Below are positions 3 to 31,946 of a DNA stretch of 34,181 nucleotides, one piece after another. Where the stretch lies: NCBI GenBank assembly GCA_025362955.1, contig JANYFB010000280.1, forward strand, positions 1 through 34,181, given 5' to 3'. Below the pieces are notes generated by a model, which worked only from the letters and a program-made list of their open reading frames with translations, was not told the DNA's origin and did no database searches. A program made the position numbers and the translations under genes. The stretch comes from Akkermansiaceae bacterium. Lineage in GTDB: Bacteria; Verrucomicrobiota; Verrucomicrobiia; Verrucomicrobiales; Akkermansiaceae. Numbering within the stretch: the stretch's first letter is position 1; every line of letters starts with the position of its first letter.

Positions 3-1880
3 TCAACCACGATTTCCGCAGGAACCCTGAAGATGGGCTCTGGAACAGCACTTCCAGCCAATACACTGGCCAGCGGCGCGAACCTGGTCATCAACACTGG
101 AGGCACGCTGGACCTCAGTGCCAACAGTATCGCGCTCGGCGTAGTTCCGACCGGCACTGGGGGCACGATCACCAACGGCTCCGCCACGAACAGCACCGCG
201 ACATTGACTTTCAACGGTGGCGGCACCCTGGCTCAAACGCTCACCGACAGCAACTCCACCTCGGCGGGAACCGGCAAGCTAGCGCTTTCCATCACGGGTG
301 GAGCGCTGACGATTAATACCACCAATACCTACACCGGAGGCACCTCGATCACCGGTGGCACGGTTACGGCAAACGGATCAAACCCTTTCGGCGCGAATGC
401 CTCGACGGCCACCGTTTCCGTCACCAGTCCCGGCACCTTGATTCTCGCATCACCCGGCAACTTTACCTACTCCAACACCTTCAGCGGCAGCGGCCTGCTA
501 AAGGTTACGTCCCCGAACGCCGGCAGCGATACTATCGTCAACAATTTCGGCGTCTTCAGCGGGACCCTCGAAGTTGCGACATCGGGTAACAACAAGTTGC
601 AGATCAATTCCAGCATTCCCACGAATCTTTCCAGCGCTACTTTGCTGATTGATAATGGGAGTCAGTATTTCACCGGAGGCAACGTGAACTTCGGCACCAT
701 CAACTTACAGGGAATCGGCAACGGTGAAAATCGCGGCGCCATCCGCCTCAATGGCAACGGTACCACGACTGGCGTTCTCGGGGGAAATCTTTCCCTCCAA
801 GGCAACACCACCATCGGCAGCGAAGGCGGCACGCTCACGGGCAGCATCTCCACCGGAGTGGCTGGGACGAGCACTCTGACCATGGGAACGAGCAATAGCA
901 GCGGCGCGGCCCTTCTTAGTGGTGCCCTCTCCAACGGCACCGGCACTCTCGCTCTGACGCAGTTCAACGGCACTACCACTCTTTCCAGTACCAACACCTA
1001 CACCGGCGTGACGACAATCACTGCCGGTACGCTCAAAGCAGGCTCTACCGGAGCATTCAGTGCCAACTCGGCGGTCACCTTGGCGAATACATCAAGCGCG
1101 ATCCTGGACACCACAGGCTTCAACACTTCCGTCGGTTCCCTGAGTGGTGGCGGGGCCAGCGGCGGTAACGTCACACTCGGCTCGGCCACTTTGACATCCG
1201 GCAGCGATGGCAGCAGCACATCCTACGCAGGAGTAATTTCCGGCACCAATGGAGCGTTTACGAAAACCGGCGGCGGCACCCAAACTCTAACCGGCACCAG
1301 CTCCTACACCGGTGCAACTACCATCAATGGGGGCAGGTTGCTGGTAAATGGGAATATCTCTACCAGTTTGCTAACAACCGTTGCCTCCGCCGGGACGCTC
1401 GGAGGGTCCGGCACCGTTGGCGCGGTGACTGTCTTGTCCGGAGGAACGATCGCTCCCGGCAATAGTCCTGGCATTCTTTCCACGGGTAGCGCAACGCTTG
1501 ATGTCGGCTCCTCCTTGGGCATCGAAATCAATGGAACCACCGTTGGCACCACTTATGACCAGCTCAATGTCACCGGTTTGGTTTCTCTAGCAGGAGCAAT
1601 TTCTGTTAGCACAGGCTACACTCCGACCAATAGCACCTTGTTTTTCATTATTGCCAATGACAGCACCGATGCGATCACCGGTACTTTCAGCAATGCTACA
1701 ATCAACGGTGCAACCTACACCCTCGGCGGGCAGGATTTCCAAATCAGTTATTTCGGAGACTCCACCGGCAACACTTTTACCGGCGGTAACGATGTCGTGC
1801 TGATGGCTGTCCCCGAACCCTCAGCTGCCGCATTGCTAGGAGCTGTGGGTGTCATTCTGCTGCTCCGCCGACGCCGCTGA
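3..1880 (+). CDS. Autotransporter-type beta-strand repeat protein with PEP-CTERM tail (5' partial)
   Basis: The frame is open to the left edge of the window; the ORF-track ATG at 33 is internal, because TISAGTL-like repeat sequence precedes it. The protein is Gly/Thr/Ser/Asn-rich and carries several autotransporter-associated beta-strand repeats of the form GTLTLTGTNTYTGGTTINGGTL, for example NTYTGGTSITGGTV and SSYTGATTINGGRL. These are expected to stack into a beta-helix passenger. The last 23 residues are a textbook PEP-CTERM sorting signal: VPEP, a hydrophobic helix, then RRRR. In this family the tail is processed by an exosortase; none is encoded in the window. I infer a secreted, surface-retained protein. 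Residues 121-440 (counted from the ATG at 33) are closely related to the C-terminal part of the next gene. The N-terminus and signal peptide lie outside the window. Confidence 0.9.
   Translation, partial: STTISAGTLKMGSGTALPANTLASGANLVINTGGTLDLSANSIALGVVPTGTGGTITNGSATNSTATLTFNGGGTLAQTLTDSNSTSAGTGKLALSITGGALTINTTNTYTGGTSITGGTVTANGSNPFGANASTATVSVTSPGTLILASPGNFTYSNTFSGSGLLKVTSPNAGSDTIVNNFGVFSGTLEVATSGNNKLQINSSIPTNLSSATLLIDNGSQYFTGGNVNFGTINLQGIGNGENRGAIRLNGNGTTTGVLGGNLSLQGNTTIGSEGGTLTGSISTGVAGTSTLTMGTSNSSGAALLSGALSNGTGTLALTQFNGTTTLSSTNTYTGVTTITAGTLKAGSTGAFSANSAVTLANTSSAILDTTGFNTSVGSLSGGGASGGNVTLGSATLTSGSDGSSTSYAGVISGTNGAFTKTGGGTQTLTGTSSYTGATTINGGRLLVNGNISTSLLTTVASAGTLGGSGTVGAVTVLSGGTIAPGNSPGILSTGSATLDVGSSLGIEINGTTVGTTYDQLNVTGLVSLAGAISVSTGYTPTNSTLFFIIANDSTDAITGTFSNATINGATYTLGGQDFQISYFGDSTGNTFTGGNDVVLMAVPEPSAAALLGAVGVILLLRRRR
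393..1352 (+). repeat. Duplicated 320-residue module, copy A
   Basis: This part of the first gene aligns throughout with 7366-8314 in the second gene. Shared runs include ENRGAIRLN, QYFTG, TIGSEGG, AGSTGAFS and SAVTLANT, in the same order with only short indels. Similarity is visible at DNA level too (for example accggagcattcag in both). It is too long and too ordered to be just the generic repeat, so a segmental duplication or recombination between neighbouring genes is the simplest reading. Confidence 0.85.
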
Positions 1881-1953
1881 TTTCCTTTCGATACTTTATT
1901 TTTTCATCTCTAAAATCTGCTCCATCTTTTCCATTACTAAACCATTTAAACCC

Positions 1954-4900
1954 ATGAAACTACATTCGTCTCACCGCGCTTTCCTCATCCTCGCTGGCTC
2001 CGCTACCGCATTCATTTTCACTCATTCGGCGCGGGCCGCGAATGCTGCTTGGTCCACCACTCCCGGTAGCATGTATTTCACCGGTAACAACTGGACGACC
2101 GGCGCCACTACCCCTGGAGCTCCTACCGGCACGATTGCTTCCGGCGATGGTCTCTATTTCGGCACCTCCAGCCTCACCACCCTTTATAACAACGAGACGG
2201 TCGGTTTTGCTGTAGGTGGCGGTGGCACCCCGGGATTTGTGTTCAATTCCGGCGCGGCAGCTTTCATCATCAATGGCAATTCGCTGGTTCTAAATGGCGA
2301 CATCACAAACAGCAGCACCAATCTTCAAACGATCAACACCCCGTTGACTTCTGGTTTCGCCCGCAATTTCACCACGTCAGCGGGTGGCGGCGATCTTACG
2401 TTTGGCGGTTCCCTCACGGCGACCGGCGGAGCAATCGCAAAAGCAGGGGCGGGTACGCTGACTCTCGGCGGCCCGACCAATACCTCGAACCAAGCGTTCA
2501 ATGTAAACGCCGGGACTTTGGATATCGGCGCCTATGGCATTACACTTTCCAACGGAACTCTTCTTCAAACAACCGGTAGCGGCACCGTTAATGCGACCGG
2601 GGGTGGGACGATCAAGCTAAATGTTGCCTTTGGTGACCTCGGGGTCTCAAGCGGCAGTGGAACGCTGACCATCAATGCGGTCATTGCCAATGGCTCGACA
2701 AACGGTATCGACCTCTATGGTGGAAGTGCGACGGGGACGGTCGTCTTGGGTGGGGCGAACACCCAAACCGGCAATAGCAATCTTCAACAAGGCAACCTGC
2801 GCCTTGCCAATAGTTTGGCACTACAGAATAGCACCCTCAACTTCAATGGCTTCGCAGCGAGTGGCACCAGCCTTACATTTGACTCATCCGTCGCCTCCAA
2901 CACATTTCTGTTAGGAGGACTCACGGCCAACGTATCTGGAGGAGCCTCCCGCGATTTCGCCCTGCAGAATACGGCTGCGGCACCCATTTCGCTAATTGTC
3001 GGTAATAACAACTCGGCCCAGACCTATGGCGGCATCATGAGCGGCGCGGGCAGCCTCACAAAAGTAGGGACAAACACACAGACACTAACAGGGGCCAATG
3101 CCTATACCGGCGGTACCGTTGTGACCTTGGGATTTCTGACCCTCGACTTCAACGCCGCTACGATTGCATCCAACATTCTCTACAATGGTGTAACGGCCGC
3201 CGGATTGACCTTGGGTGGAGCTTCTTCGGGAATGAACGGGGTTCCCGGCCAAGGTTTCCCGGGAGTAGCGACGCAAGCCAAAGCCAACACCGCTACCGTC
3301 CAGACTTTTGGTGGACTTACCTTAAATCCGAGTATGGATATCCTCACTGCCCGGGGAATCGGCACGGGTAACATGACGGTCACCCTCGGTGCCATCACGC
3401 ACAACCCAGGCGGGAGTATCAATTTCAGCCGTCTTAATGATGTGGTTGTCAGCACTGGTGCGGGCATCTTCGCTACCACCACTACTAACGGTGCAAGTGG
3501 TATCTTGGGAGCTTGGGCGGTGACAAATCCTGCCACAAGCCAAACCACCAATTTCGTAAATCCAACCGACTACGCAGCGGTCTCAGGGGGAAATATCGTA
3601 GCTTATACAGGCTACAACGTCGTGACAGGTGGAAGCACCCTTGCAAGTGTGGCGGCCAACAACAACCGCGTCACGGCGTCGGGAACCATCGCGCTGGCTG
3701 CAGCAGGCGTGGTCACCACGGACCTCAACACCCTCAGCCTCGCATCCACTGCCACGGGTGCGACTACCGTCACCATCGGCGCTTCCGGCACCCTCCGACT
3801 GGGTGCGAATGGCGGCATGTTCGACTCCAGTGGCGGCGGCAATATCACGGTCAGTGGCGGAACCCTAACCGCAGGTGGGACTCCCGATACAGCGGGTGAA
3901 ATCAACCTGATCGGCGGTGGTCCCAGCAATCCATTTACTTTAAATTCTGTCATCGCCAATAACGGCACGGGGGCTGTGGCTCTCTCGATCACCAGTTATG
4001 GAAATGGGAACATCACCATCGGGGGGACTAACACCTACACCGGCGGCACCTTCCTCAACAGCGGTCGCACGCAGGCAAATAGCAGCGCTGCGTTCGGCAC
4101 CGGGGCCGTCACAATCATGCCCTATGCACAGGCTTACTTGAATTCCTCAACCTTTGCCAATGACTTCAATATTTCCGGCAATGGCACGGGGAATACCGAC
4201 ACGCCCTCAGCCATTCGTTTTCAAGGACCCAACACAATCACCGGAAAAGTCACTTTGCTAAGTGATGCAGTGATCGGGATTCGCGGCGGTACGGGCAACT
4301 TCATCACCGGTAAAATCACCGGCAATTACAACTTGACCATCGGCGAGGGCACCGGCTTCGGCGACATCACCATCTCCAATACGGCCAACGACTTCGGTGG
4401 CAGGCTCAACATTAATAACGAGGCGGTGATTCTCGGAGCATCAGGAGTCATTCCCGATGCCAGCACCGTCAATTTCTCTAACGCGGCCTCAAAGCTGATC
4501 TTGAACGGGTTCAACGAAACCATCGGCGGGATACTCAACACCGGCGGCAACACCTCCGCGCTCTTCGAGGCTTCGGAAAGCGGCAGCAGCAAAGTCTCGG
4601 TCCTGACGGACAATCAGACGTTTAGCAGCACGTTCAACGGAATCCTCCGCAACTCCGCTAGTGGCTCGGGCAACCTCCTTTCGCTGGTCAAAACCGGTGC
4701 TGGGACTCTAACCCTGACCAACGCTGCGAATTTAAGCGGTTACACCGGCGGAACGACCATCAATGGGGGCGCGATTCAGTTAGGCGTAAGCAGCGGCGCC
4801 ACTTTCAGCGCCATCGGTTCCACTACTGGCGCATTGACCGTAAACACGGGCGGCACCTTGGACATGAATGGCTTCAATCAGACAGTCGGACCCCTGACTG

Positions 4901-7900
4901 GCACCGGCGGTCTTATTACTAGTAGCGCCGTCGGCACCCTGACTCTTACGACCGGGGATGTGACTAACACGACCTTCGCTGGTGCAATCCGGGATGGAAA
5001 CGCAACTTCGATCTCGCTGGTCAAACAAGGTGCCGGAACCCTCACACTCACCGGAATCAATACCTACTCAGGAACGACAACGGTCAATGTGGGCGCGCTT
5101 CAGATCGGAACGGGCGGCAGTATTGTCCCCGCCGCGGCGGTCACTCTATCAGGCACTGGAACCCTCATCGTTGGGGACGCGACAGGTCCCGTCGCGCAGA
5201 CTTTTAATAACCTTACTTCTGTCTCCGGATCGTCAATCGTCGGCGGTGCGGCCACTGCTTCGACACTAACCCTGAACGGAGCCGGTACTGTTACCTATCC
5301 AGCCTCCTTCGGCGGCGCGGGAACGAATCAGAACAATCTGAACCTGATCATCGCTGGCACGGCGTCGCCTGTTAGTATTCTTGGCGGCACCAGTACTTAT
5401 ACGGGAACGACCACGATCAACAGCGGCAGCAACCTGGCGCTCACGGGTAAATTGGGAACCACGGCCACCACCATCAATTCCGGCGGGACATTTTCCGGCT
5501 TCGGCAATGGCACCACCACAGGGGTCATCGGCGGAAATCTGACCGGCTCGGGCGGCGCTACCATTTCCCTTACAAACACCTCAGGCAGTCTAACGGCAGG
5601 CAACATCGCCCTTGGCAATGGCTCGGCCTATGGCGCAGGTAACTATTCGACTTTGACCTTCACCCTCGCAGCCGGAAATTTGGTGGAATCCTTGAACACG
5701 CCAGGCACGCTCAACATAAATAGTGGCGGTGCCTTCGTGAACGTGACCAACCCGGCGCAGAACGGCACCTTCGTTCTCGCCAATTACACCGGCGGACTTA
5801 CCGGCTCTGGTGGCTTCTCCCTCAGCAGCACGACTCCCAACGTCCTCACCCAAAACTCCGGGCGGAACGTCGAAACACTCACCGTAGGTTCTAACACGCT
5901 GACCCTCGTCATCAGCGGTGCGGGTGCTCCCGGAGTAGCCTACTTCAACGGCGGTGCTACGGTCGGAAGCAGGACCATTTGGAACAATCTTTCTGACCCG
6001 AGTTTCGTCAATTTCTCGACCGATCTAGCAGGATTGAATGACGGGGGAAATACAGTTGGCGCACTCAGCGATGTGATTCTCAATGCAAACAACGCCACGA
6101 CCAACGTAGGCAGTGCTTCGATCACCGAAACGCTCGGTGCCAGCACGATTATCAACAGCCTGCGGGTGAATGGTAACGGAACCACCACCATCGGTGCGGA
6201 TGGATCGATTCTTACAATCAATGCGTTGGGCGATGCCAATACCGATACCGGCGGCGGCTTCACCGGCAACCCCGCCGGTGTGGGTATCGTCATCGCCAGC
6301 AGTGCGAATGCCTTCACGGTGAACGTTCCTGTGGAATTGGGTAACGATCAATCCTGGACAAACAACTCCGGGAACTTGTTCACCAAATCAGGCACAGTGT
6401 CCGGGAAAGCCTTGGTTGCCTCTACCCTTGCCCTCAGCAACTCGAATTCCGGGGGCACCACCCTCCCAGGCATAATCGGAAACGGAGCGGGCGGCACGCT
6501 TGCTTTGGCCGTCAACAACACTGGCTCCGGGGTGACGACTCTAGGGGCAACGAATTCCTATAGTGGTGGTACCACTCTGAACGGCGGGACCTTAACCGCA
6601 ACCGTCAGCGGTGGTTTCGGCCTTGGAAACGTCACCGTTAATCCGACCAACACGACTGCCTCCGCAGCAGACGACAGCACCTTGAACACCAACGGAAGCA
6701 TCGCATCCACAGCCGCACTCACAGTAAATAGCGAAACGGGCGACGGCGGGTTCGGAATTGGCACAGTTAATTTCAACGGCGCTACCCCAGTGATCGGCAG
6801 TCTCTCTGGAAATGGTTTCGTCGTCCTCGATAATGCGGGCGGTACGGCATTCACCGTCGGCAGCACGAACAACCTTTCTTCAACATTCTCCGGTGTCATC
6901 TCAAACGGCCTGGGAACCGGCACCCTCATCAAGGCGGGCACGGGAACCCTGCTGCTCTCCGGGACTAACACCTTCACCGGCGGCACGATCCTGAACGCGG
7001 GAATCCTCCAAATCGGCAATGCAGGCGCCTTCGGCACCACCAGCCGGGCACTGGCATTCGGTGTGAATAGCACGGGCAAACTCCAACTGAACGGCACCAG
7101 CCTCTCCCTAACCGACCTCACCACCAACGCTACCGTCGGCACTCCCATCATCGAAAGCGGTTCGGCTTCTGCGGGAACTGATACACTAACCGTGACCACA
7201 GCCAGCACCGATGCCTATGCGGGCGTGCTGCAAAACGGTGGAACCCGTTTGCTTGGATTAACGAAGAGCGGTACGGGCACACTTACCTTAAGCGGAACCA
7301 ATACATTCAGCGGCAACATCGCGGTGACAGGTGGGACACTGGCAGTTGGCAACGTCGCCACTATTGGCGCCAATGTTTCAACCACTTCGGTAAATATCAC
7401 TAGCCCCGGCATCCTGGCAATCACTTCCACTGCCAACCAAACTTATGCAGACACGTTTACCGGAAATGGCAAAATTCTCTGCACTTTGAATACGGGAGGT
7501 TCGGACACGATTTTCACTAACTTCAATGCATTTACTGGCACTCTGGAGTTATCTGGACCCGGCGGAAACTCTAACAAGTTGCAAATCACGGGGAATATCA
7601 CCTCGAATCTTTCCACCGCTCAGTTGCAAGTGAATAACAATGCTCAGTATTTCACCGGCACAGGCACGGTGAACTTCGGTAACATCAGTATCATCGGCAA
7701 CGGCAACAACGAGAACCGCGGTGCCATCCGACTGAATACAGGTACGCTTGGCGGTAATATTTCGCTTGCTGGCAACTCTACAATCGGCAGCGAGGGTGGG
7801 GTGCTGACCGGCAACATCAGCAGCGGCATCGCCGGCAACAACACCCTCACGATGGGAACCGGCAATAGCACTGGCACAGCACTATTGAGTGGAAATGTCA

Positions 7901-9069
7901 GCAATGGCACCGGCACGCTTGCAATTACCCAAGCGAATGGAACCACCACCCTATCCGGCGCGAACAGCTACAGCGGTGCAACAACGATTAACTTCGGGGT
8001 CTTCAAGGCCGGTTCCACCGGAGCATTCAGCCCCGCCTCCGCAGTCACCTTGGCGAATACGAATGGCGCGACGCTCAATACCACCGGTTTCAACACCACC
8101 ATCGGCTCACTTGCTGGCGGTGGTGCCACCGGCGGGAACGTGGTCCTCGGCGCGGCCACCCTCACCACCGGTGCCATCGGCTCCACGACTTCATACGCCG
8201 GGGTGATTTCCGGCAGCGGAGGCGGACTCACGAAAACCGGAGCAGGCACCCAGACCCTCTCCGCCATCAATACCTACACCGGCGCAACTACCGTCAATGC
8301 CGGTATTTTAAAACTCGGCGCGGCAGGCTCCATCGCTGCCAGCTCGGGTGTTAGCTTGGCAACGGGAGCTGTGCTTGATACCACCGCACAATCATTCTCC
8401 ATGGCAGGCGGACAACCGTTCACCATTCACCTGGATGGCACAGGCGCTGGCTCCAGTGGGAAAATTTTGGCAGCAGGTCTTAACATCTCGAGTGGAGTCG
8501 TGAACCTCACCATCGACAACCCCCTCAACGACTCCGCCTATGTGATCGCCGATTACACCGGCACCGTTACCACAACCTTCGGCACGATCACTGGCATTCC
8601 CACCGGCTACACGATCAACTATGCTTACAACAGTGGCACTCAGATCGCAATCGTCCAATCTGGATATGACTCTTGGGCTTTAAGTTATGGACTTACCGGA
8701 GCGGATGCCCTCCCTAGCGCAGATCCAGATAACGATGGAATTAAAAATCTGTTGGAATATGTCCTCAGCGGTAATCCTACAGTTTCCTCTCAATCTATCC
8801 TACCTACCCAAGATAGTTCAGGTGCCAACCTCGTGTTCACCTTCACCCGCAGCGATGCTTCGGAAACGGACACCACCCAAATCTTCCAATATGGCACCGA
8901 TCTAACCGGATGGACGAATGTGTCTATCGGTGCCGCCAGTACTGGACCGGATGGAAATGGCGTCACCGTCGATATCGTTGAAAACCTCCTCGCCCCGGAC
9001 ACCGTCACCGTCACCGTTCCCAAGGGAGCCCACACGGTACTCTTCGGTCGCTTGGACGTGACCAAATAA
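1954..9069 (+). CDS. Giant secreted autotransporter-type beta-strand repeat protein, no PEP-CTERM
   Basis: The product is 2371 residues. The ATG at 1954 is preferred over the ORF-track start at 1849 because it gives a clean signal peptide (MKLHSSHRAF, a hydrophobic stretch, then ARA-A cleavage) and avoids overlap with the previous gene. About a dozen autotransporter-associated beta-strand repeats are visible, such as GTLTLTGINTYSGTTTVNVG and GTLLLSGTNTFTGGTILNAG, predicting a long beta-helix. No beta-barrel translocator is visible at the end, so classical type V secretion is unlikely. The last 140 residues form a separate domain starting near YDSWALSYGL and containing DPDNDGIKNLLEYVL, a calcium-loop-like motif common at the ends of verrucomicrobial exported proteins. 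No VPEP...RRR tail is present, unlike both neighbours. It is separated by 73 bp of AT-rich DNA from the gene upstream. Function is inferred as a surface or extracellular matrix protein; the ligand is unknown. Confidence 0.9.
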   Translation: MKLHSSHRAFLILAGSATAFIFTHSARAANAAWSTTPGSMYFTGNNWTTGATTPGAPTGTIASGDGLYFGTSSLTTLYNNETVGFAVGGGGTPGFVFNSGAAAFIINGNSLVLNGDITNSSTNLQTINTPLTSGFARNFTTSAGGGDLTFGGSLTATGGAIAKAGAGTLTLGGPTNTSNQAFNVNAGTLDIGAYGITLSNGTLLQTTGSGTVNATGGGTIKLNVAFGDLGVSSGSGTLTINAVIANGSTNGIDLYGGSATGTVVLGGANTQTGNSNLQQGNLRLANSLALQNSTLNFNGFAASGTSLTFDSSVASNTFLLGGLTANVSGGASRDFALQNTAAAPISLIVGNNNSAQTYGGIMSGAGSLTKVGTNTQTLTGANAYTGGTVVTLGFLTLDFNAATIASNILYNGVTAAGLTLGGASSGMNGVPGQGFPGVATQAKANTATVQTFGGLTLNPSMDILTARGIGTGNMTVTLGAITHNPGGSINFSRLNDVVVSTGAGIFATTTTNGASGILGAWAVTNPATSQTTNFVNPTDYAAVSGGNIVAYTGYNVVTGGSTLASVAANNNRVTASGTIALAAAGVVTTDLNTLSLASTATGATTVTIGASGTLRLGANGGMFDSSGGGNITVSGGTLTAGGTPDTAGEINLIGGGPSNPFTLNSVIANNGTGAVALSITSYGNGNITIGGTNTYTGGTFLNSGRTQANSSAAFGTGAVTIMPYAQAYLNSSTFANDFNISGNGTGNTDTPSAIRFQGPNTITGKVTLLSDAVIGIRGGTGNFITGKITGNYNLTIGEGTGFGDITISNTANDFGGRLNINNEAVILGASGVIPDASTVNFSNAASKLILNGFNETIGGILNTGGNTSALFEASESGSSKVSVLTDNQTFSSTFNGILRNSASGSGNLLSLVKTGAGTLTLTNAANLSGYTGGTTINGGAIQLGVSSGATFSAIGSTTGALTVNTGGTLDMNGFNQTVGPLTGTGGLITSSAVGTLTLTTGDVTNTTFAGAIRDGNATSISLVKQGAGTLTLTGINTYSGTTTVNVGALQIGTGGSIVPAAAVTLSGTGTLIVGDATGPVAQTFNNLTSVSGSSIVGGAATASTLTLNGAGTVTYPASFGGAGTNQNNLNLIIAGTASPVSILGGTSTYTGTTTINSGSNLALTGKLGTTATTINSGGTFSGFGNGTTTGVIGGNLTGSGGATISLTNTSGSLTAGNIALGNGSAYGAGNYSTLTFTLAAGNLVESLNTPGTLNINSGGAFVNVTNPAQNGTFVLANYTGGLTGSGGFSLSSTTPNVLTQNSGRNVETLTVGSNTLTLVISGAGAPGVAYFNGGATVGSRTIWNNLSDPSFVNFSTDLAGLNDGGNTVGALSDVILNANNATTNVGSASITETLGASTIINSLRVNGNGTTTIGADGSILTINALGDANTDTGGGFTGNPAGVGIVIASSANAFTVNVPVELGNDQSWTNNSGNLFTKSGTVSGKALVASTLALSNSNSGGTTLPGIIGNGAGGTLALAVNNTGSGVTTLGATNSYSGGTTLNGGTLTATVSGGFGLGNVTVNPTNTTASAADDSTLNTNGSIASTAALTVNSETGDGGFGIGTVNFNGATPVIGSLSGNGFVVLDNAGGTAFTVGSTNNLSSTFSGVISNGLGTGTLIKAGTGTLLLSGTNTFTGGTILNAGILQIGNAGAFGTTSRALAFGVNSTGKLQLNGTSLSLTDLTTNATVGTPIIESGSASAGTDTLTVTTASTDAYAGVLQNGGTRLLGLTKSGTGTLTLSGTNTFSGNIAVTGGTLAVGNVATIGANVSTTSVNITSPGILAITSTANQTYADTFTGNGKILCTLNTGGSDTIFTNFNAFTGTLELSGPGGNSNKLQITGNITSNLSTAQLQVNNNAQYFTGTGTVNFGNISIIGNGNNENRGAIRLNTGTLGGNISLAGNSTIGSEGGVLTGNISSGIAGNNTLTMGTGNSTGTALLSGNVSNGTGTLAITQANGTTTLSGANSYSGATTINFGVFKAGSTGAFSPASAVTLANTNGATLNTTGFNTTIGSLAGGGATGGNVVLGAATLTTGAIGSTTSYAGVISGSGGGLTKTGAGTQTLSAINTYTGATTVNAGILKLGAAGSIAASSGVSLATGAVLDTTAQSFSMAGGQPFTIHLDGTGAGSSGKILAAGLNISSGVVNLTIDNPLNDSAYVIADYTGTVTTTFGTITGIPTGYTINYAYNSGTQIAIVQSGYDSWALSYGLTGADALPSADPDNDGIKNLLEYVLSGNPTVSSQSILPTQDSSGANLVFTFTRSDASETDTTQIFQYGTDLTGWTNVSIGAASTGPDGNGVTVDIVENLLAPDTVTVTVPKGAHTVLFGRLDVTK
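7366..8314 (+). repeat. Duplicated 320-residue module, copy B
   Basis: This is the counterpart of copy A at 393-1352. After this block the two proteins diverge completely. Copy A continues into a PEP-CTERM end, while copy B continues into the DPDNDGIKNLLEYVL-type C-terminal domain. Confidence 0.85.
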
Positions 9070-9258
9070 AACTCATGGTACAAGTCTCAAAAATTCTGAC
9101 TGACGAGATTTCCAAGGTAACTTAATTTTTACTGCATCGCCTCATTGTCCGAACCAAATTCGCTCCCCTGCCCCTTGGTGAAAAGGGCAGGTCAAAAAGC
9201 TCGGCTGTCTTCAAACACGGGCGAGCGTTGCAAACCCAAAAACCCCTCAGCTGATCAA

Positions 9259-9558
9259 ATGAAATTCCGTGTTTTCGGGGGACTTCCCGTGCGTCTGCAA
9301 ACTCTCTCGATAGTTTGTCGGCTTGGCCTCACCGTCATGCTCCTCAGCTCATCGCAGATTGTAAGTGCAACACCTGAAGTGTTCACTTCGGAGATTACCC
9401 CGCCGCTGACCGGTCCCGTTAAATCTCGCGCCACGCTTCGCAGTGAAACTGCTGCCTCTTGGATGAAAGTTCCAGAACCATCGGGCGCGGCCTTGTTCGG
9501 TGGACTTGGTGCGCTGTTACTGCTCCGTCGCCGCCGCGAACCCAATCTCTCGCACTAA
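9259..9558 (+). CDS. Mini PEP-CTERM protein (99 aa)
   Basis: The ORF track starts at 9145, but the first 38 residues there look non-coding. The ATG at 9259 (MKFRVFGGLPVRLQTL) gives a signal peptide with a hydrophobic core (LGLTVMLLSSSQIVSA). About 35 residues with no recognisable fold follow, and then a PEP-CTERM tail VPEPSGAALFGGLGALLLLRRRR with six extra residues (EPNLSH). The mature region between the two targeting signals is therefore tiny. It sits 189 bp downstream of the giant repeat protein, which lacks such a tail. It may be a real small surface or decoy protein, or the relic of a larger PEP-CTERM gene whose passenger was deleted. I cannot choose between these from sequence alone. Confidence 0.6.
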   Translation: MKFRVFGGLPVRLQTLSIVCRLGLTVMLLSSSQIVSATPEVFTSEITPPLTGPVKSRATLRSETAASWMKVPEPSGAALFGGLGALLLLRRRREPNLSH

Positions 9559-18816: not shown

Positions 18817-19209
18817 TCACTTTTTTACGGAATTCAAAAGTTCGCGTAGAATCGGTATATCCGCTGGTGCCCACGAAAGTTCGCTTAAACATTCCCGTGC
18901 ACACCACAGGAGCTTTTCATGTTCCAGAGCTTGCAAGTCACCACCAATAATTAGGCAGTGGAAGGGCAGCAAGCGAATCTCTGTTCCCTCGTAGCTCCAA
19001 ATGACCGGACACAACGGTGAGCCGACTTTAACCTCCACGGCGAGTTCTTCGCGCAACTCGCGGGTAAGCGCGGATTCGGGAGATTCGCCGGGATCGACCT
19101 TGCCGCCGGGCCATTCCCAAAGGCCACCGAGATGCTTGTGTGCCGGACGCAGGCAGGCGAGGAAATGTCCTTGGGAATTTGTTATTACGCCGCAGACGAC
19201 ATCCATCAT
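18817..19209 (-). CDS. mutT: MutT-type Nudix hydrolase
   Basis: The product is 130 residues from the ATG at 19209 (MMDVVCGVITNSQGHFLACL). The track extends the frame another 96 residues upstream, but that part runs out of frame through the repeat gene and its terminator and is a shadow. The Nudix box is complete: GGKVDPGESPESALTRELREEL, within the 23-residue pattern G-x5-E-x7-REUxEE. The preceding LWEWPGGK is typical of the 8-oxo-dGTP/CTP pyrophosphohydrolase group, which cleans oxidised nucleotides from the pool. Length is normal for MutT. The exact substrate is not certain. It ends 49 bp before the DUF1549 gene on the same strand. Confidence 0.85.
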   Translation of the reverse strand: MMDVVCGVITNSQGHFLACLRPAHKHLGGLWEWPGGKVDPGESPESALTRELREELAVEVKVGSPLCPVIWSYEGTEIRLLPFHCLIIGGDLQALEHEKLLWCARECLSELSWAPADIPILRELLNSVKK

Positions 19210-19267
19210 GGTTCGCCAAGCTGCCTGAACGACTCGGCTGCCGTCAACCGAGTCTTGATCGGCGCAC

Positions 19268-19301
19268 AAAAAAACCGCCAGAGAATATCCGGCGGTTTTT
19301 T
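19268..19301 (-). terminator. Intrinsic terminator behind the CxxC repeat peptide
   Basis: On the minus strand the sequence reads AAAAAA CCGCC, a 12-nt loop, GGCGG and a run of seven T. The stem extends through the A/T tracts, so it could stop transcription from both directions. It starts 23 bp after the stop codon of the 19325-19561 gene and lies before the Nudix gene, so it separates the two. It is the only clear intrinsic terminator I found in the window. Confidence 0.85.
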
Positions 19302-19324
19302 GAAATTGATGTTCTGCTAGGAAA

Positions 19325-19561
19325 TTAGGCGAGAGTGCCTTCTTCTTTCTTTTCCTCACCTTCGCCCTTTTTGCATTTGTCGCAAACAGCAAGGGTTCCT
19401 TCTTCTTTCTTTTCTTCGCCTTCGCCCTTTTTGCATTTATCGCAAACAGCGAGAGTGCCTTCTCCCTTTTTTTCTTCGCCTTTTTTGCACTTTTCACAAT
19501 CGCTTGCGAATGCAGGGAGAACCATGAACGAGGCGCAAAGCGCTGTGAGGAGTAGTTTCAT
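19325..19561 (-). CDS. Small secreted CxxC repeat peptide
   Basis: The product is 78 residues. A signal peptide (MKLLLTALCASFMVLPAFA) is followed by three units, each containing a CDKCKKGE or CEKCKKGE segment and a Lys/Glu-rich stretch ending in GTLAV or GTLA. The mature peptide thus has three CxxC pairs set in highly charged sequence, a pattern compatible with metal binding or disulfide exchange. No family is recognised. The gene has its own terminator, and an inverted repeat lies 43-103 bp upstream, so it looks like a stand-alone expressed unit. The other frames through this stretch are also open, which is a by-product of the repeat, but only this frame has a signal peptide and regular cysteines. 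Confidence 0.75.
   Translation of the reverse strand: MKLLLTALCASFMVLPAFASDCEKCKKGEEKKGEGTLAVCDKCKKGEGEEKKEEGTLAVCDKCKKGEGEEKKEEGTLA
19329..19508 (-). repeat. Three 60-bp coding tandem repeats
   Basis: Unit starts at 19329, 19389 and 19449 are exactly 60 bp apart (gcgagagtgccttctt, gcaagggttccttctt, gcgagagtgccttctc). Each unit encodes 20 residues. The two downstream units are nearly identical; the unit nearest the signal peptide has lost two codons. Copy number may vary between strains. Confidence 0.9.
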
Positions 19562-19603: not shown

Positions 19604-19663
19604 ACCGTAAGAACCGCACCAGTGGAAATTATTCCAAAAAAATCACGATGCGGTTAAAACGGT
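19604..19663. promoter_or_regulatory. Nested symmetrical inverted repeat upstream of the CxxC peptide
   Basis: The outer arms are ACCGT-AAG-AACCGCA and TGCGGTT-AAA-ACGGT. The 12 paired bases are perfect, with a 3-nt internal loop in the same place on each side. Between them, 30 nt away from closure, lies a second dyad, TGGAA-ATTA-TTCCA. It sits between the peptide gene (minus strand) and tgt (plus strand). It could be a double operator or a structured leader of either transcript. Confidence 0.5.
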
Positions 19664-19792
19664 CAGGATCACATCATTAACTCCGCCGGAAGGGGAATGT
19701 TTCTGAAAAATTCAGTTTCCCTCCACTGCCGCGGGATTGGGTAATTGAGCTTGGCCCACGGGGCGTTACAGCCTATTCCCCGCCGCTCTTCC

Positions 19793-20926
19793 GTGTCCTT
19801 TACTGTTCTTTCCACCGATTCATCGACTTCCGCCCGGCGCGGGCGCTTGGTTTTGCCGCATGGCGTGGTTGAAACTCCGATTTTCATGCCTGTCGGCACC
19901 CAAGGTACGGTGAAAACCCTGCATCCCGCCGAATTAGAACTCCTCGGTGCCCAGATCATCTTGGGAAATACCTATCACCTCTGGCTGCGGCCGGGTCATG
20001 AACTGATCCGCAATCTAGGCGGCCTCCACGGTTTCAGCACATGGCAAAGGCCCATGCTCACGGATTCCGGAGGTTTTCAGGTGTGGTCCTTGGCAAAATT
20101 GCGCAAAATCACCGAAGAAGGAGTGCGTTTCCAAAACCACCTGGACGGCTCGAAAATGCTACTTACTCCCGAACGGAGTATGGAAATCCAAGGCGCGCTC
20201 GGCTCGGACATCGCGATGCTCTTCGACGAATGCCCGCCCTTTCCTTGCGACGAGGCTTACGCCGCAAAATCTCTCGCCCTCACCAGCCGCTGGGCCATGC
20301 GTTGCAAGGATTGGGTTGTGAAAAACGAGCCGCAGTCCGGTGCGGGACGACAGCAACATTTCGGCATTGTCCAAGGCTCCATTTTCGCCGATCTACGGGA
20401 ACAATCAGCTCGCGAGTTGGTTGAACTGGACTTCGACGGCTATGCAATTGGGGGCGTGTCCGTAGGCGAACCGGAGCATGAAATGTTTCGCGCCATCGAC
20501 AATGCGGTGCCCTTCCTCCCGCAAGACAAACCTCGATACGCCATGGGCCTGGGCACTCCGCCTCAGATCTTGGAAATGATTGCCCGTGGCGTGGACATGT
20601 TCGACTGTGTCATGCCCACGCGGATTGCCCGTCACGGGATGGCCATGACACTCGACGGGCCGATCAACATCAAGAATCTGATCCACGCAAAAGATCCGCG
20701 GCCGATTTGCGAGAGCGCCCATCCGCACGTCGCCGGATTTTCGAGGGCTTATTTGCGCCACCTTTTCCGGGCGGGCGAAATCCTCGGTTTGCGGTTGCTT
20801 TCCTTCCACAATCTGCATTTCTACCTCTCCCTCGTCGCCGGGGCAAGAGATGCCATCGCTGCGGGGAACTTCCCCACCTATCAAGATTCCTTCGTCCGAC
20901 GCTACACTCGATTAGATTCCTTATGA
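19793..20926 (+). CDS. tgt: Queuine tRNA-ribosyltransferase (tRNA-guanine transglycosylase)
   Basis: The product is 377 residues from a GTG at 19793 (V-S-F-T-V-L-S-T-D), which matches the usual start of the family; the track start is a TTG 16 codons earlier. The enzyme swaps guanine 34 of GUN-anticodon tRNAs for a queuosine precursor. Present are VVETPIFMPVGTQGTVK, the active-site DSGGFQVWSL (Asp about 91), DECPP, and the nucleophile Asp in DMFDCVMPTR (about 271). The zinc site is unusual. The standard CxCxxC before YSRAYLHHL is missing, and the sequence is CESAHPHVAGFSRAYLRHL, while the distal His (FHNLHFY) is kept. The gene leads the conserved tgt-yajC-secDF order and overlaps yajC by ATGA. 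Confidence 0.95.
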   Translation: MSFTVLSTDSSTSARRGRLVLPHGVVETPIFMPVGTQGTVKTLHPAELELLGAQIILGNTYHLWLRPGHELIRNLGGLHGFSTWQRPMLTDSGGFQVWSLAKLRKITEEGVRFQNHLDGSKMLLTPERSMEIQGALGSDIAMLFDECPPFPCDEAYAAKSLALTSRWAMRCKDWVVKNEPQSGAGRQQHFGIVQGSIFADLREQSARELVELDFDGYAIGGVSVGEPEHEMFRAIDNAVPFLPQDKPRYAMGLGTPPQILEMIARGVDMFDCVMPTRIARHGMAMTLDGPINIKNLIHAKDPRPICESAHPHVAGFSRAYLRHLFRAGEILGLRLLSFHNLHFYLSLVAGARDAIAAGNFPTYQDSFVRRYTRLDSL

Positions 20927-23819: not shown

Positions 23820-24596
23820 TTACTCGGCAGGTTTCGGTGGCGGTGGGAAATCCTCTGCGGAAATCTTGAGGTCGCCATTCCGGTCGAGCAGTTGGAAACG
23901 ATTTTCCTGCTCGTCTTCCGTTAGGTTTTTCACTGCTGGTCCTGCGCGGAATTCTTCGAAGGACAAGGCTCCGTCACCATTCGAATCGAGTTTATGGTTG
24001 ATGTGACCGGGCTCGTCTGGCTCCGCTTCTTTTTCAGGATGCTTGCCTTCAGGCCCGTCGTGGTGCGGCATTCCGTCAGGGCGTTTGAACGGGGGTTGCG
24101 GGTGGTCCTTGGGGGTGATCACCCCATCTCCATCAGAATCTAACCGATGAAACACCTCTTCCTGCCGCTCGGGGGGAAGTTTCATGAACAGCTGGCCTGC
24201 TTTGAATTCTTCAAAACTGACGCCACCGCTTTTGTCGGTATCCAGTTCCCACAAGCGCTGCATTTGCGGCCCCGGCCCGTCGTGCGGTTTCACAAAGTGA
24301 CCCAGTTCCTCGCGGCTCAGTTTACCATCGCCATCCTTGTCGAGGCGTTTGAAAAGATTCGCCCGCTTTTCCTCGGGCAGATTGCGAGGGCGAGGCATGG
24401 CATCGAATTCTGCTTGGGAAATGAATCCATCGTGATCCGAGTCCGTGAGTTTCCATGTTTCGAGGAACGGCGGCGGACCTCTGCGATCGCCTTTCTCATC
24501 CCCTGCCGGCGCCATTGGAGGCGCGGGTGGCTGGGCTAGGCAGACCGTGGGCAGCATCATTCCCGCAACAAGAAGGGAAACAGGGATTGTTTTCAT
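23820..24596 (-). CDS. Secreted six-EF-hand calcium-binding protein
   Basis: The product is 258 residues from the ATG at 24596; the track start is a TTG two codons upstream. A signal peptide (MKTIPVSLLVAGMMLPTVCLAQ) is followed by six EF-hand loops starting near residues 52, 86, 119, 153, 204 and 238. Examples are DSDHDGFISQAE, DKDGDGKLSREE, DSDGDGVITPKD and DSNGDGALSFEE. Loop 3 (DTDKSGGVSFEE) and loop 6 (DRNGDLKISAED) deviate slightly from the canonical pattern. A His/Pro/Asp/Glu-rich linker (GMPHHDGPEGKHPEKEAEPDEPGH) separates loops 4 and 5. Such exported EF-hand proteins are common in Planctomycetes and Verrucomicrobia; the partner is unknown. Confidence 0.88.
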   Translation of the reverse strand: MKTIPVSLLVAGMMLPTVCLAQPPAPPMAPAGDEKGDRRGPPPFLETWKLTDSDHDGFISQAEFDAMPRPRNLPEEKRANLFKRLDKDGDGKLSREELGHFVKPHDGPGPQMQRLWELDTDKSGGVSFEEFKAGQLFMKLPPERQEEVFHRLDSDGDGVITPKDHPQPPFKRPDGMPHHDGPEGKHPEKEAEPDEPGHINHKLDSNGDGALSFEEFRAGPAVKNLTEDEQENRFQLLDRNGDLKISAEDFPPPPKPAE

Positions 24597-24703
24597 AGGC
24601 AATTAACGCTTTTTTAGCCGCGTTCCGCAACGCTAACTCCCGAAGAAACTCCAAACCCTCGGAAAAGTTTCGCTTCACGCTGGTCTTCCCTTCACCCATT
24701 TTC

Positions 24704-30042: not shown

Positions 30043-30155
30043 TTTCCGAAGGACGGCAGTTTTTAAACTGGGCTTGGCTGTTTCCCCAAGAAATGACCGG
30101 GAAAATTCTGGTTTCTTCACTGGCAAGGTGCCGGGTTCCCTGTTGTTTTTCCGCC

Positions 30156-31946
30156 ATGTTCGCCGTCACGAATATCTCGACCTACCGCTTCGCCGAACTC
30201 ACCGGCTTGAAGGACTTGCGGGAGGATCTTATCACCGCATGTCGGGCGTGGGATCTCAAGGGGACAATCCTTCTCAGCACGGAAGGCATCAACTTATTTG
30301 TGGCGGGAGCGGCGGAGTCGATAGAGTTGCTGTTGGAAAAACTCAGGAAAATTCCCGGCCTTGAAGATCTGGAGCCGAAGGTCAGCGTCAGCGAGAAGCA
30401 ACCTTTCAACCGGATGTTAGTAAGGGTAAAAAAGGAAATCATTGCTTTCGGCATGGAGAGTATCCGCCCAGCCAATTATACCTCGCCTAAAATCGCAGCG
30501 TCCGAGCTGAAACGATGGCTGGATGAAGGCAAGTCGATCACCTTGCTCGATACCCGCAATGATTACGAAGTGCAGCTCGGCACTTTCAAAGGCGCGCTCA
30601 TTCCTCATATCAACACGTTCCGTGAATTTCCAGACGCGATTCGAAAATTTCCGGAATCACTCAAGAGTCAGCCGGTCGTGATGTTCTGCACTGGTGGTAT
30701 CCGATGTGAAAAAGCCGGACCGTTCATGGAACAGGAAGGTTTCAGCAATATCTATCAACTCGACGGCGGCATCCTCAAATATTTCGAGGAATGCGGAGGC
30801 GATCATTACGAAGGTGAATGCTTCGTCTTCGACCAGCGCGTGGGCGTGGACCCCGGGCTGCGCGAGACGGATTATGCAATCTGCTTCGCCTGCCAAGCAC
30901 CGTTGGATGCTGCCGATCAAGAAGACCCCCGGCATGTGGAAGGCGTGAGTTGTCCGCATTGTTTCGTCAGTGCGCCGGAACGCATGAGCCAGCGGATTGC
31001 TGAACTGCATCTCGCAATTTTTAAAGTTACTCATCCCTTGCCAGGTTCAGTCGCTTTGGAAAACCGCCGTCCCATCAATGTCCCCGCCTCGCAGGATGGA
31101 AAAACTTTGTTAGAAGCATTGATTGCCATTTTTCCACAGATTCCGCCCACGGAATGGGAGGCGAGATGTGATGCGGGCCGCTTCGAGAATTACGGCGGAA
31201 CTGTTAGATGGAAAAATCATCGGGTGCGCGGTGGCGAGCGGGTAAATCAGGTTTTTGCGCCCGCCGTCGAGCCGCCGGTATCAGCGGACATTCGCGTGGT
31301 GTATGAAGACGAAGCGGTCCTCGTGATTCACAAACCCGCGCCGCTGCCGATGCACGCAAGTGGGCGATTTCATCGCAACACGCTGCAAGCCATTCTGAAT
31401 CAGGTGTATGCTCCCAAGTATCCCAGACCTGTGCATCGTCTTGACGCAAATACTACCGGCCTCGTGGTGTTCGCGCGCACCCGCCATTTCTGCCGTGTGC
31501 TCCAGCGTCAGTTTCTCGGAGGGACGGTGGAAAAGCGATATCTTGTGCGAGTGCTGGGACAACCCGAGCAAGATACATTTTTCTCCGACGCTCCGATTTC
31601 CGCCGAACCGGATGTGATGGGGATGCGGCTTATAGACCCGCTTGATGGACTGCCCTCGCGAACGGATTTTCATGTGTTAGAGCGTTGCTCCGATGGAACT
31701 ACTCTGCTAGAGGCCAAGCTGGCAACTGGCAGGACCAATCAAATCCGTGCCCATCTTTGGCAACTTGGTCATCCAGTTGCAGGAGATCCTACTTATCTTC
31801 CGTTTCACCAAATCGGCGAAACGCAGACGCTCGATCCCGACTCCCCACCACTCCAACTTCATGCATGGAAACTTTCGTTTTCCCATCCTTTAAGCGGGGC
31901 AGTGATGGCGTTCGAAACCGAGCGTCCGAAATGGTCCGGAGTGTGA
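30156..31946 (+). CDS. Fusion of tRNA uridine hydroxylase TrhO and RluA-type pseudouridine synthase
   Basis: The product is 596 residues from the ATG at 30156. Residues 1-285 are a full TrhO (YceA): an N-terminal acylphosphatase-like part (GTILLSTEGINLFVAG), a rhodanese domain with LDTRNDYEVQLGTFKGA and the active loop CTGGIRCEKA (Cys about 178), and a Cys-rich part (ECFVFDQRVG, ICFAC, CPHCF). TrhO makes 5-hydroxyuridine at tRNA position 34. Residues 315-370 look S4-like. Residues 380-590 are an RluA-family pseudouridine synthase, with catalytic Asp in PVHRLDANTTGLVVFAR (about 430) and the RTNQIRAHLWQLGHPVAGDPTY motif. TrhO alone is normally about 350 residues. The frame is continuous with no frameshift sign. 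The RNA target of the second half cannot be told from sequence. Confidence 0.92.
   Translation: MFAVTNISTYRFAELTGLKDLREDLITACRAWDLKGTILLSTEGINLFVAGAAESIELLLEKLRKIPGLEDLEPKVSVSEKQPFNRMLVRVKKEIIAFGMESIRPANYTSPKIAASELKRWLDEGKSITLLDTRNDYEVQLGTFKGALIPHINTFREFPDAIRKFPESLKSQPVVMFCTGGIRCEKAGPFMEQEGFSNIYQLDGGILKYFEECGGDHYEGECFVFDQRVGVDPGLRETDYAICFACQAPLDAADQEDPRHVEGVSCPHCFVSAPERMSQRIAELHLAIFKVTHPLPGSVALENRRPINVPASQDGKTLLEALIAIFPQIPPTEWEARCDAGRFENYGGTVRWKNHRVRGGERVNQVFAPAVEPPVSADIRVVYEDEAVLVIHKPAPLPMHASGRFHRNTLQAILNQVYAPKYPRPVHRLDANTTGLVVFARTRHFCRVLQRQFLGGTVEKRYLVRVLGQPEQDTFFSDAPISAEPDVMGMRLIDPLDGLPSRTDFHVLERCSDGTTLLEAKLATGRTNQIRAHLWQLGHPVAGDPTYLPFHQIGETQTLDPDSPPLQLHAWKLSFSHPLSGAVMAFETERPKWSGV

Follow-up and report, generated by a model that had tools for sequence, protein, structure and literature searches.

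What is the function of a very small exported protein that consists almost entirely of cysteine-bearing repeats, and does it need an enzyme to work? This question is raised by a gene on the minus strand (19325-19561) of a 34,181-nucleotide stretch of DNA from an Akkermansiaceae bacterium (assembly GCA_025362955.1, contig JANYFB010000280.1), which we call the window. The earlier note on this DNA had described the gene as encoding a secreted CxxC peptide made of 60-bp tandem repeats, and had suggested a periplasmic metal buffer or a redox peptide. As a whole, this interpretation is partly supported by our results. The gene encodes a 78-residue member of an unannotated family, and its promoter is of a type that also precedes operons for metal efflux and for bufferin-type peptides. 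We propose, with moderate confidence, that the peptide is a periplasmic thiol buffer for metal ions, most likely Cu(I) and possibly Zn, Cd or Ag, which would be controlled by an extracytoplasmic function (ECF) sigma factor and would work independently of MNIO, the enzyme that modifies bufferins and oxazolins.

The open reading frame (ORF) runs from a signal peptide through three repeat units (MKLLLTALCASFMVLPAFA / SDCEKCKKGEEKKGEGTLA / VCDKCKKGEGEEKKEEGTLA / VCDKCKKGEGEEKKEEGTLA). In the signal peptide, K2, A7, A10, P16 and A19 are near-invariant among 24 homologues. Tandem Repeats Finder placed an array with a period of 60 bp at 19332-19482 (2.5 copies, 87% matches, score 239), the sole array in the whole window. 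The units had been regarded as three nearly identical blocks of 20 residues. This holds for units 2 and 3, which are 100% identical as protein, but not for unit 1, which is shorter (19 residues) and less similar to the others. At the DNA level, units 2 and 3 differ at 6 of 60 bases. Because all six differences are silent, they argue for purifying selection on the peptide frame, and for an older duplication of these units rather than the recent one that had been suggested. Across the family, 70 adjacent near-identical unit pairs carry 181 silent and 104 amino-acid-changing base differences, counts that are indicative only, since the pairs were picked at a protein identity of at least 90%.

Homologues occur across the genus, with E-values down to 2.5e-26 in a whole-genome search of the nearest relatives that matched most genus members, and the CxxC frame is conserved in close relatives, contrary to the refuting condition that the earlier note had set. 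The remaining two same-strand frames contain stops in all 50 members examined. Because the homologues are conserved across the genus and the other frames are closed, chance is excluded, and the comparison makes it certain that the gene and its family are real. A long overlapping ORF (18817-19497), in which another frame of the repeats is fused to the neighbouring NUDIX gene, was rejected, as this frame is closed in 50 of 50 homologues; the NUDIX gene itself starts past the terminator of the peptide gene.

With a profile built from 24 sequences, 26 of the 27 genomes sampled from the genus were found to carry the family, as do further genera of the same bacterial family; among the listed members of genus g18, which have genomes of 2-3.5 Mb, there was no match. 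One genome of the order outside the bacterial family carries one match, and a phylum sample of 388 yielded just two further weak matches outside the bacterial family. The carriers are environmental relatives of Akkermansia, and the matching public records come from uncultured Akkermansiaceae or Verrucomicrobia. Plasmid-borne copies were not found. Member proteins are 56-199 residues long and contain 2-10 units and a total of 4-23 cysteines. As the earlier note had anticipated, the copy number changes: two members from related species, whose upstream DNA is 92% identical, have 7 units (L034) and 5 units (L036), respectively.

The mature peptides are rich in Lys (27%), Glu (17%), Asp (13%), Cys (11%) and Gly (10%), with practically no Arg or aromatic residues. 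Their cysteines are mainly paired, with a spacing of 2 as the commonest (159 cases), followed by 4 and then 3; the pairs are CxxC in the window, and CxxxC and Cx4C in relatives. Units end in a short box, such as EEGTLA, ESTLVA or EDPALA, and such a box usually forms the C-terminus as well (GTLA in 22 of 47 complete members). AlphaFold2, run with the family alignment, gave a mean predicted local distance difference test score (pLDDT) of 46, and the peptide is predicted to be intrinsically disordered. In line with the earlier statement that no family is recognised, none of the 24 members matched Pfam or NCBIfam above the cut-off, and the family is without a model. Solved structures offered just alpha-synuclein and zinc-finger look-alikes (E at least 0.19), and the best match in PHROGs had E = 0.049. 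The window peptide weakly matches the HPE1-like CxxC domain (NF041110, E = 0.0044), mostly over the signal peptide and the first CxxC units. This effector domain was rejected as a relative, since the score of 17 bits lies below the cut-off of 45, and a match was seen in 1 of the 24 members. We found no description of the family in the openly available literature, and it is an unnamed family, whose members are probably periplasmic metal buffers of a type not yet catalogued.

The promoter of the peptide gene (GGAATAATTTCCACTGGTGCGGTTCTTA) sits about 74 bp 5' of the start codon. From its sequence we infer the layout of an ECF promoter, with a -35 element of the GGAAT/GAAC type, a spacing of about 16 bp and a -10 element TCT. 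The pattern GAAYAA-N14..18-TC is found in 33 of 50 upstream regions of the family, against 2.3 expected and a maximum of 8 in 300 Markov controls. A single MNIO enzyme (PF05114) is present in the window's genome; it is encoded on another contig (C65), where its gene shares an operon with those for DUF2063 and a Cys-repeat precursor. The promoters of the peptide gene (TTGGAATAATTTCCACTGGTGCGGTTCTTACGG) and the MNIO operon (TTGGAATAATTTTTAGACGTGCGAGTCTCATTC) are similar, and GGAATAATTT-N12..14-TCTBA has exactly two sites in the 3.9-Mb genome, which are these two. A wider pattern scan in genome G030 reached the 5' end of an operon for an outer-membrane factor, a CusB-like adaptor that contains a heavy-metal-binding domain, and a pump of the CusA/CzcA kind. 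The window's genome has the orthologous cusCBA operon, where TTGGAATTTTCCACTTAGATGTTACTCTCACCG precedes a leader ORF; the identity of CusA follows from TIGR00914 (1028 bits).

This sharing of a promoter type with bufferin-type and cus operons recurs in several relatives. The strict pattern GGAAT-N17..19-TCTYA was found in 4 of the 13 MNIO precursors and in 5 of the 19 cus leaders, where it always lies at -36 or -37; 0.0005 would be expected per 120 bp. A looser pattern, for which 0.05 would be expected, was seen at 30 of the 50 peptide genes, 12 of the 19 cus leaders and 6 of the 13 MNIO precursors. A strict scan for GGAATAA-N15..17-TCTNA also returned a few extra matches inside genes and in repeated elements, and hence a regulon cannot be defined by this motif alone. 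The spacer motif CTGGCG was tried as a regulon marker and rejected, as genome-wide matches to GAATAA-N5..8-CTGGCG gave no other coherent targets. In Caulobacter, a metal-responsive ECF sigma factor drives DUF2282-DUF692-DUF2063-DoxX operons (PMC3511200). In genome G665, an ECF sigma gene (PF04542, PF08281) lies directly 5' of cusC (L183), and its product may regulate promoters of this type. In the genus, a small conserved secreted ORF with a cysteine cluster of the CCxG..CPC type precedes cusCBA (L173-L201); the window's genome has its own copy before G000:C287:7465, and the G030 copy has no Pfam match.

These data are consistent with the following mechanism. Metal stress in the envelope would activate an ECF sigma factor that reads GGAAT-N18-TCTYA-like promoters, which would raise CusCBA efflux, the MNIO-modified buffer where present, and the CxxC peptide together. 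The peptide would be exported via Sec as a disordered, Cys-rich chain, and we infer that its CxxC pairs, as reduced thiols, bind Cu(I) or similar thiophilic ions until the ions are exported. Each unit would offer one cysteine pair, set in a Lys/Glu/Asp-rich linker with (E)EGTLA at its end, and these linkers may keep the units soluble and apart. Metal capacity would scale with the number of units, which may shift by tandem duplication and loss. An MNIO enzyme would not be required, and most carrier genomes have none.

An alternative explanation might be that the peptide is the precursor of a ribosomally made, post-translationally modified peptide of the bufferin or oxazolin type, with MNIO acting in trans on its cysteines. 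Both bufferins and oxazolins are secreted Cys peptides that MNIO modifies together with DUF2063; some of them have a variable repeat number, and bufferins sequester copper in the periplasm (PMC12452194). The CxxC peptide resembles them in combining a predicted Sec signal peptide with cysteines in a small precursor. Modification in trans would also fit the fact that the window's genome has an MNIO and DUF2063 operon that includes a Cys-repeat precursor of its own, and the promoter type that this operon has in common with the peptide gene. Moreover, MNIO precursors of these bacteria are also built of repeats, for example DDCPGKDKEKKEETVLAGK in genome G136, with boxes resembling those of the CxxC family; the Lys/Glu-rich boxes of G136 are alike in the MNIO precursor (KEKKEETVLAGK) and the CxxC peptide (KEKKEETTLAGK), with a shuffling z = 8.3.

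However, an obligate MNIO partner is ruled out by co-occurrence. Of the 50 peptide-bearing genomes in the order sample, 17 have MNIO and 33, including a single-contig genome (G004), do not; in a genus-level sample it was found in 5 of 37 genomes. True bufferin precursors are seldom without MNIO, with 21 of 4072 genomes for DUF2282 and 67 of 2583 for EGKCG (PMC12452194). Furthermore, the neighbours of the peptide gene (tgt, mutT, tlyA, ruvA and others) include no MNIO (PF05114) or DUF2063, and no modifying enzyme adjoins it. The window peptide has no EGKCG repeats, and neither it nor the 24 members searched against Pfam and NCBIfam matched the DUF2282 or BufA models above the cut-off. Because MNIO is missing in 33 of the 50 carriers, the peptide is not a bufferin in the strict sense; and because only 17 carriers have the enzyme, whereas bufferin precursors without it are rare, the peptide probably works like a bufferin without being one. 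Modification in trans hence seems unlikely.

The MNIO precursor in the window's genome (L069/L172) ends in KKEEKKEGTIL and weakly matches BufA2 (18 bits, cut-off 60); it is an unannotated bufferin-like precursor type. In MNIO precursors of related genomes (L143, L145, L147-L152), each unit of a long tandem array (DDCPGKDK...KKEETVLAGK) contains one Cys; the MNIO survey sections considered here name no such repeat type.

The peptide might also act as a periplasmic thiol-disulphide redox buffer or as a substrate of a disulphide relay, rather than as a metal ligand. The cysteine number is even in most members, pairs such as CGKC and CDKC could cycle as disulphides, and the peptide is exported to an oxidising compartment. 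Yet, it is predicted to have no thioredoxin fold, or any fold at all, and many pairs are CxxxC or Cx4C. Between the two roles in the earlier note, the sequence evidence favours metal, probably copper, because the promoter type is common to MNIO bufferin-type and cusCBA operons; a general redox role is disfavoured, and we consider it improbable.

A third possibility, a zinc-limitation or zinc-storage peptide under Zur/Fur control, appears very unlikely. In the subgroup located at tlyA, a troABC-like metal ABC transporter adjoins the gene in one species (L060), or a Fur-family regulator gene is nearby in a related one (L058). These supporting neighbours are limited to two species, however, and the upstream alignment showed no palindromic Zur-type operator but an ECF-like common element. 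Finally, although low-complexity repeats of variable copy number are frequent in surface proteins, an extracellular structural or adhesive role unrelated to metals is highly improbable for so small a peptide with constant cysteine pairing, a promoter common to metal genes, and no anchor or sorting signal.

Several points weigh against the metal-buffer interpretation. The strict promoter pattern was partly drawn from the sequences that it unites (the first two promoters), so that the cus leaders are its independent test, and it fits just 1 of 50 peptide upstream regions, the others fitting the looser form. The ECF factor of the MNIO cluster in genome G028 was rejected as the common regulator, since it has no close homologue in the window's genome (G000), G009 or G030. 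The likeness of CxxC peptide and MNIO precursor is weak outside G136, with z of about 1-2.4. In addition, free thiols may turn into disulphides in an oxidising periplasm, the very problem that MNIO chemistry is thought to solve.

More tentatively, environmental Akkermansiaceae-type bacteria might use the CxxC peptide as an unmodified, secreted 'periplasmic metallothionein' of duplicable units, either alongside MNIO bufferins or in their place. A single ECF sigma factor would then control it together with the bufferin-type and Cus genes, and its metal capacity would evolve by unit copy number; CxxC and MNIO-dependent peptides may even share a repeat ancestor. Cysteine modification is considered necessary for MNIO bufferins to retain copper in the oxidising periplasm. 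If our interpretation is true, plain thiol repeats could do or share the bufferin job without an enzyme, and this unannotated family, which almost all sampled genomes of the genus carry, would offer a natural series of 2-10 units in which metal capacity could be followed against repeat number. The GGAAT-N18-TCTYA type would then be a candidate metal-stress promoter for Verrucomicrobiota.

Table 1. Positions of the peptide gene, its parts and its landmarks in the window.
Feature	Position	Strand	Remarks
Coding sequence, 78-residue secreted CxxC-repeat peptide	19325..19561	-	ATG start, stop TAA at 19325-19327; ORF list and homologues
Predicted Sec signal peptide MKLLLTALCASFMVLPAFA, residues 1-19	19505..19561	-	cut after AFA; sequence and conservation
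Unit 1, SDCEKCKKGEEKKGEGTLA	19448..19504	-	19 residues
Unit 2, VCDKCKKGEGEEKKEEGTLA	19388..19447	-	20 residues
Unit 3, VCDKCKKGEGEEKKEEGTLA	19328..19387	-	protein as unit 2, 6 silent base differences
ECF-type promoter (putative) GGAATAATTTCCACTGGTGCGGTTCTTA	19608..19635	-	-35-like GGAATAA 19629-19635, -10-like TCTTA 19608-19612
Intrinsic terminator, AAAAAACCGCCGG-loop-CTGGCGGTTTTTTT	19263..19300	-	z = -3.0; kept after family genes
tgt (queuine tRNA-ribosyltransferase), divergent neighbour	19745..20926	+	PF01702; landmark in many relatives, outside the system
MutT-type NUDIX hydrolase, downstream beyond terminator	18817..19242	-	PF14815 and PF00293, synteny; landmark only

The peptide gene stands alone, without a constant enzyme neighbour. 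Many genomes show the divergent arrangement with tgt-yajC-secDF that is seen in the window, and in others the gene lies 3' of tlyA or of a ruvA-like gene; the neighbours vary, and the promoter and terminator stay with the gene. The terminator that had been noticed earlier is confirmed as a 13-bp stem followed by U7, and no shuffled sequence was equally stable (z = -3.0). Across the family, 30 of 47 genes are followed by a perfect stem of 6 bp or more and a T tract. The structured upstream region was not convincing, with z = -1.98 and 8 of 200 shuffles equally stable, and no Rfam elements were found in the window. The conserved upstream feature is the promoter, not an RNA fold.

Elsewhere in the window, a secreted EF-hand protein (23820-24602, minus strand) lies in conserved synteny beside secDF and metF, and a 617-residue ORF (30093-31946, plus strand) joins a TrhO-type tRNA U34 hydroxylase (rhodanese) to an RluA-family pseudouridine synthase. 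Two large autotransporter-like repeat proteins occupy 33-9069 (plus strand), the first with a PEP-CTERM-like tail (VPEPSAAALLG...LLLRRRR). Such a tail is also present in a short ORF at 9145-9558, which may be a remnant.

Compared to known systems, the peptide is most readily set beside the MNIO-modified Buf_EGKCG or oxazolin precursors, such as HvfA. These likewise have a Sec signal and a variable number of short Lys/Glu/Gly-rich Cys repeats, and a metal (copper) role of the kind that we predict for the peptide (PMC12452194). In contrast, the peptide has CxxC or CxxxC pairs and (E)EGTLA boxes, and 33 of 50 genomes lack MNIO. Buf1 (DUF2282) and Buf2 (BufA2, NF050166) are likewise small secreted Cys peptides, of ECF-regulated metal-stress operons, but the window peptide matches neither DUF2282 nor BufA, has no enzyme partners and has a repeat architecture. 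Bacterial metallothioneins (SmtA/BmtA, MymT) are Cys-rich, poor in aromatic residues and without a fold in the absence of metal. The peptide shares this Cys-rich, aromatic-poor composition, whereas metallothioneins are cytosolic and are not tandem repeats behind a signal peptide; the Pfam metallothionein models matched none of 24 family members. Csp1, an exported protein with many thiols that hold Cu(I), is alike in export and in its many thiols, but it is a folded four-helix bundle, whereas the CxxC peptide is predicted to be disordered.
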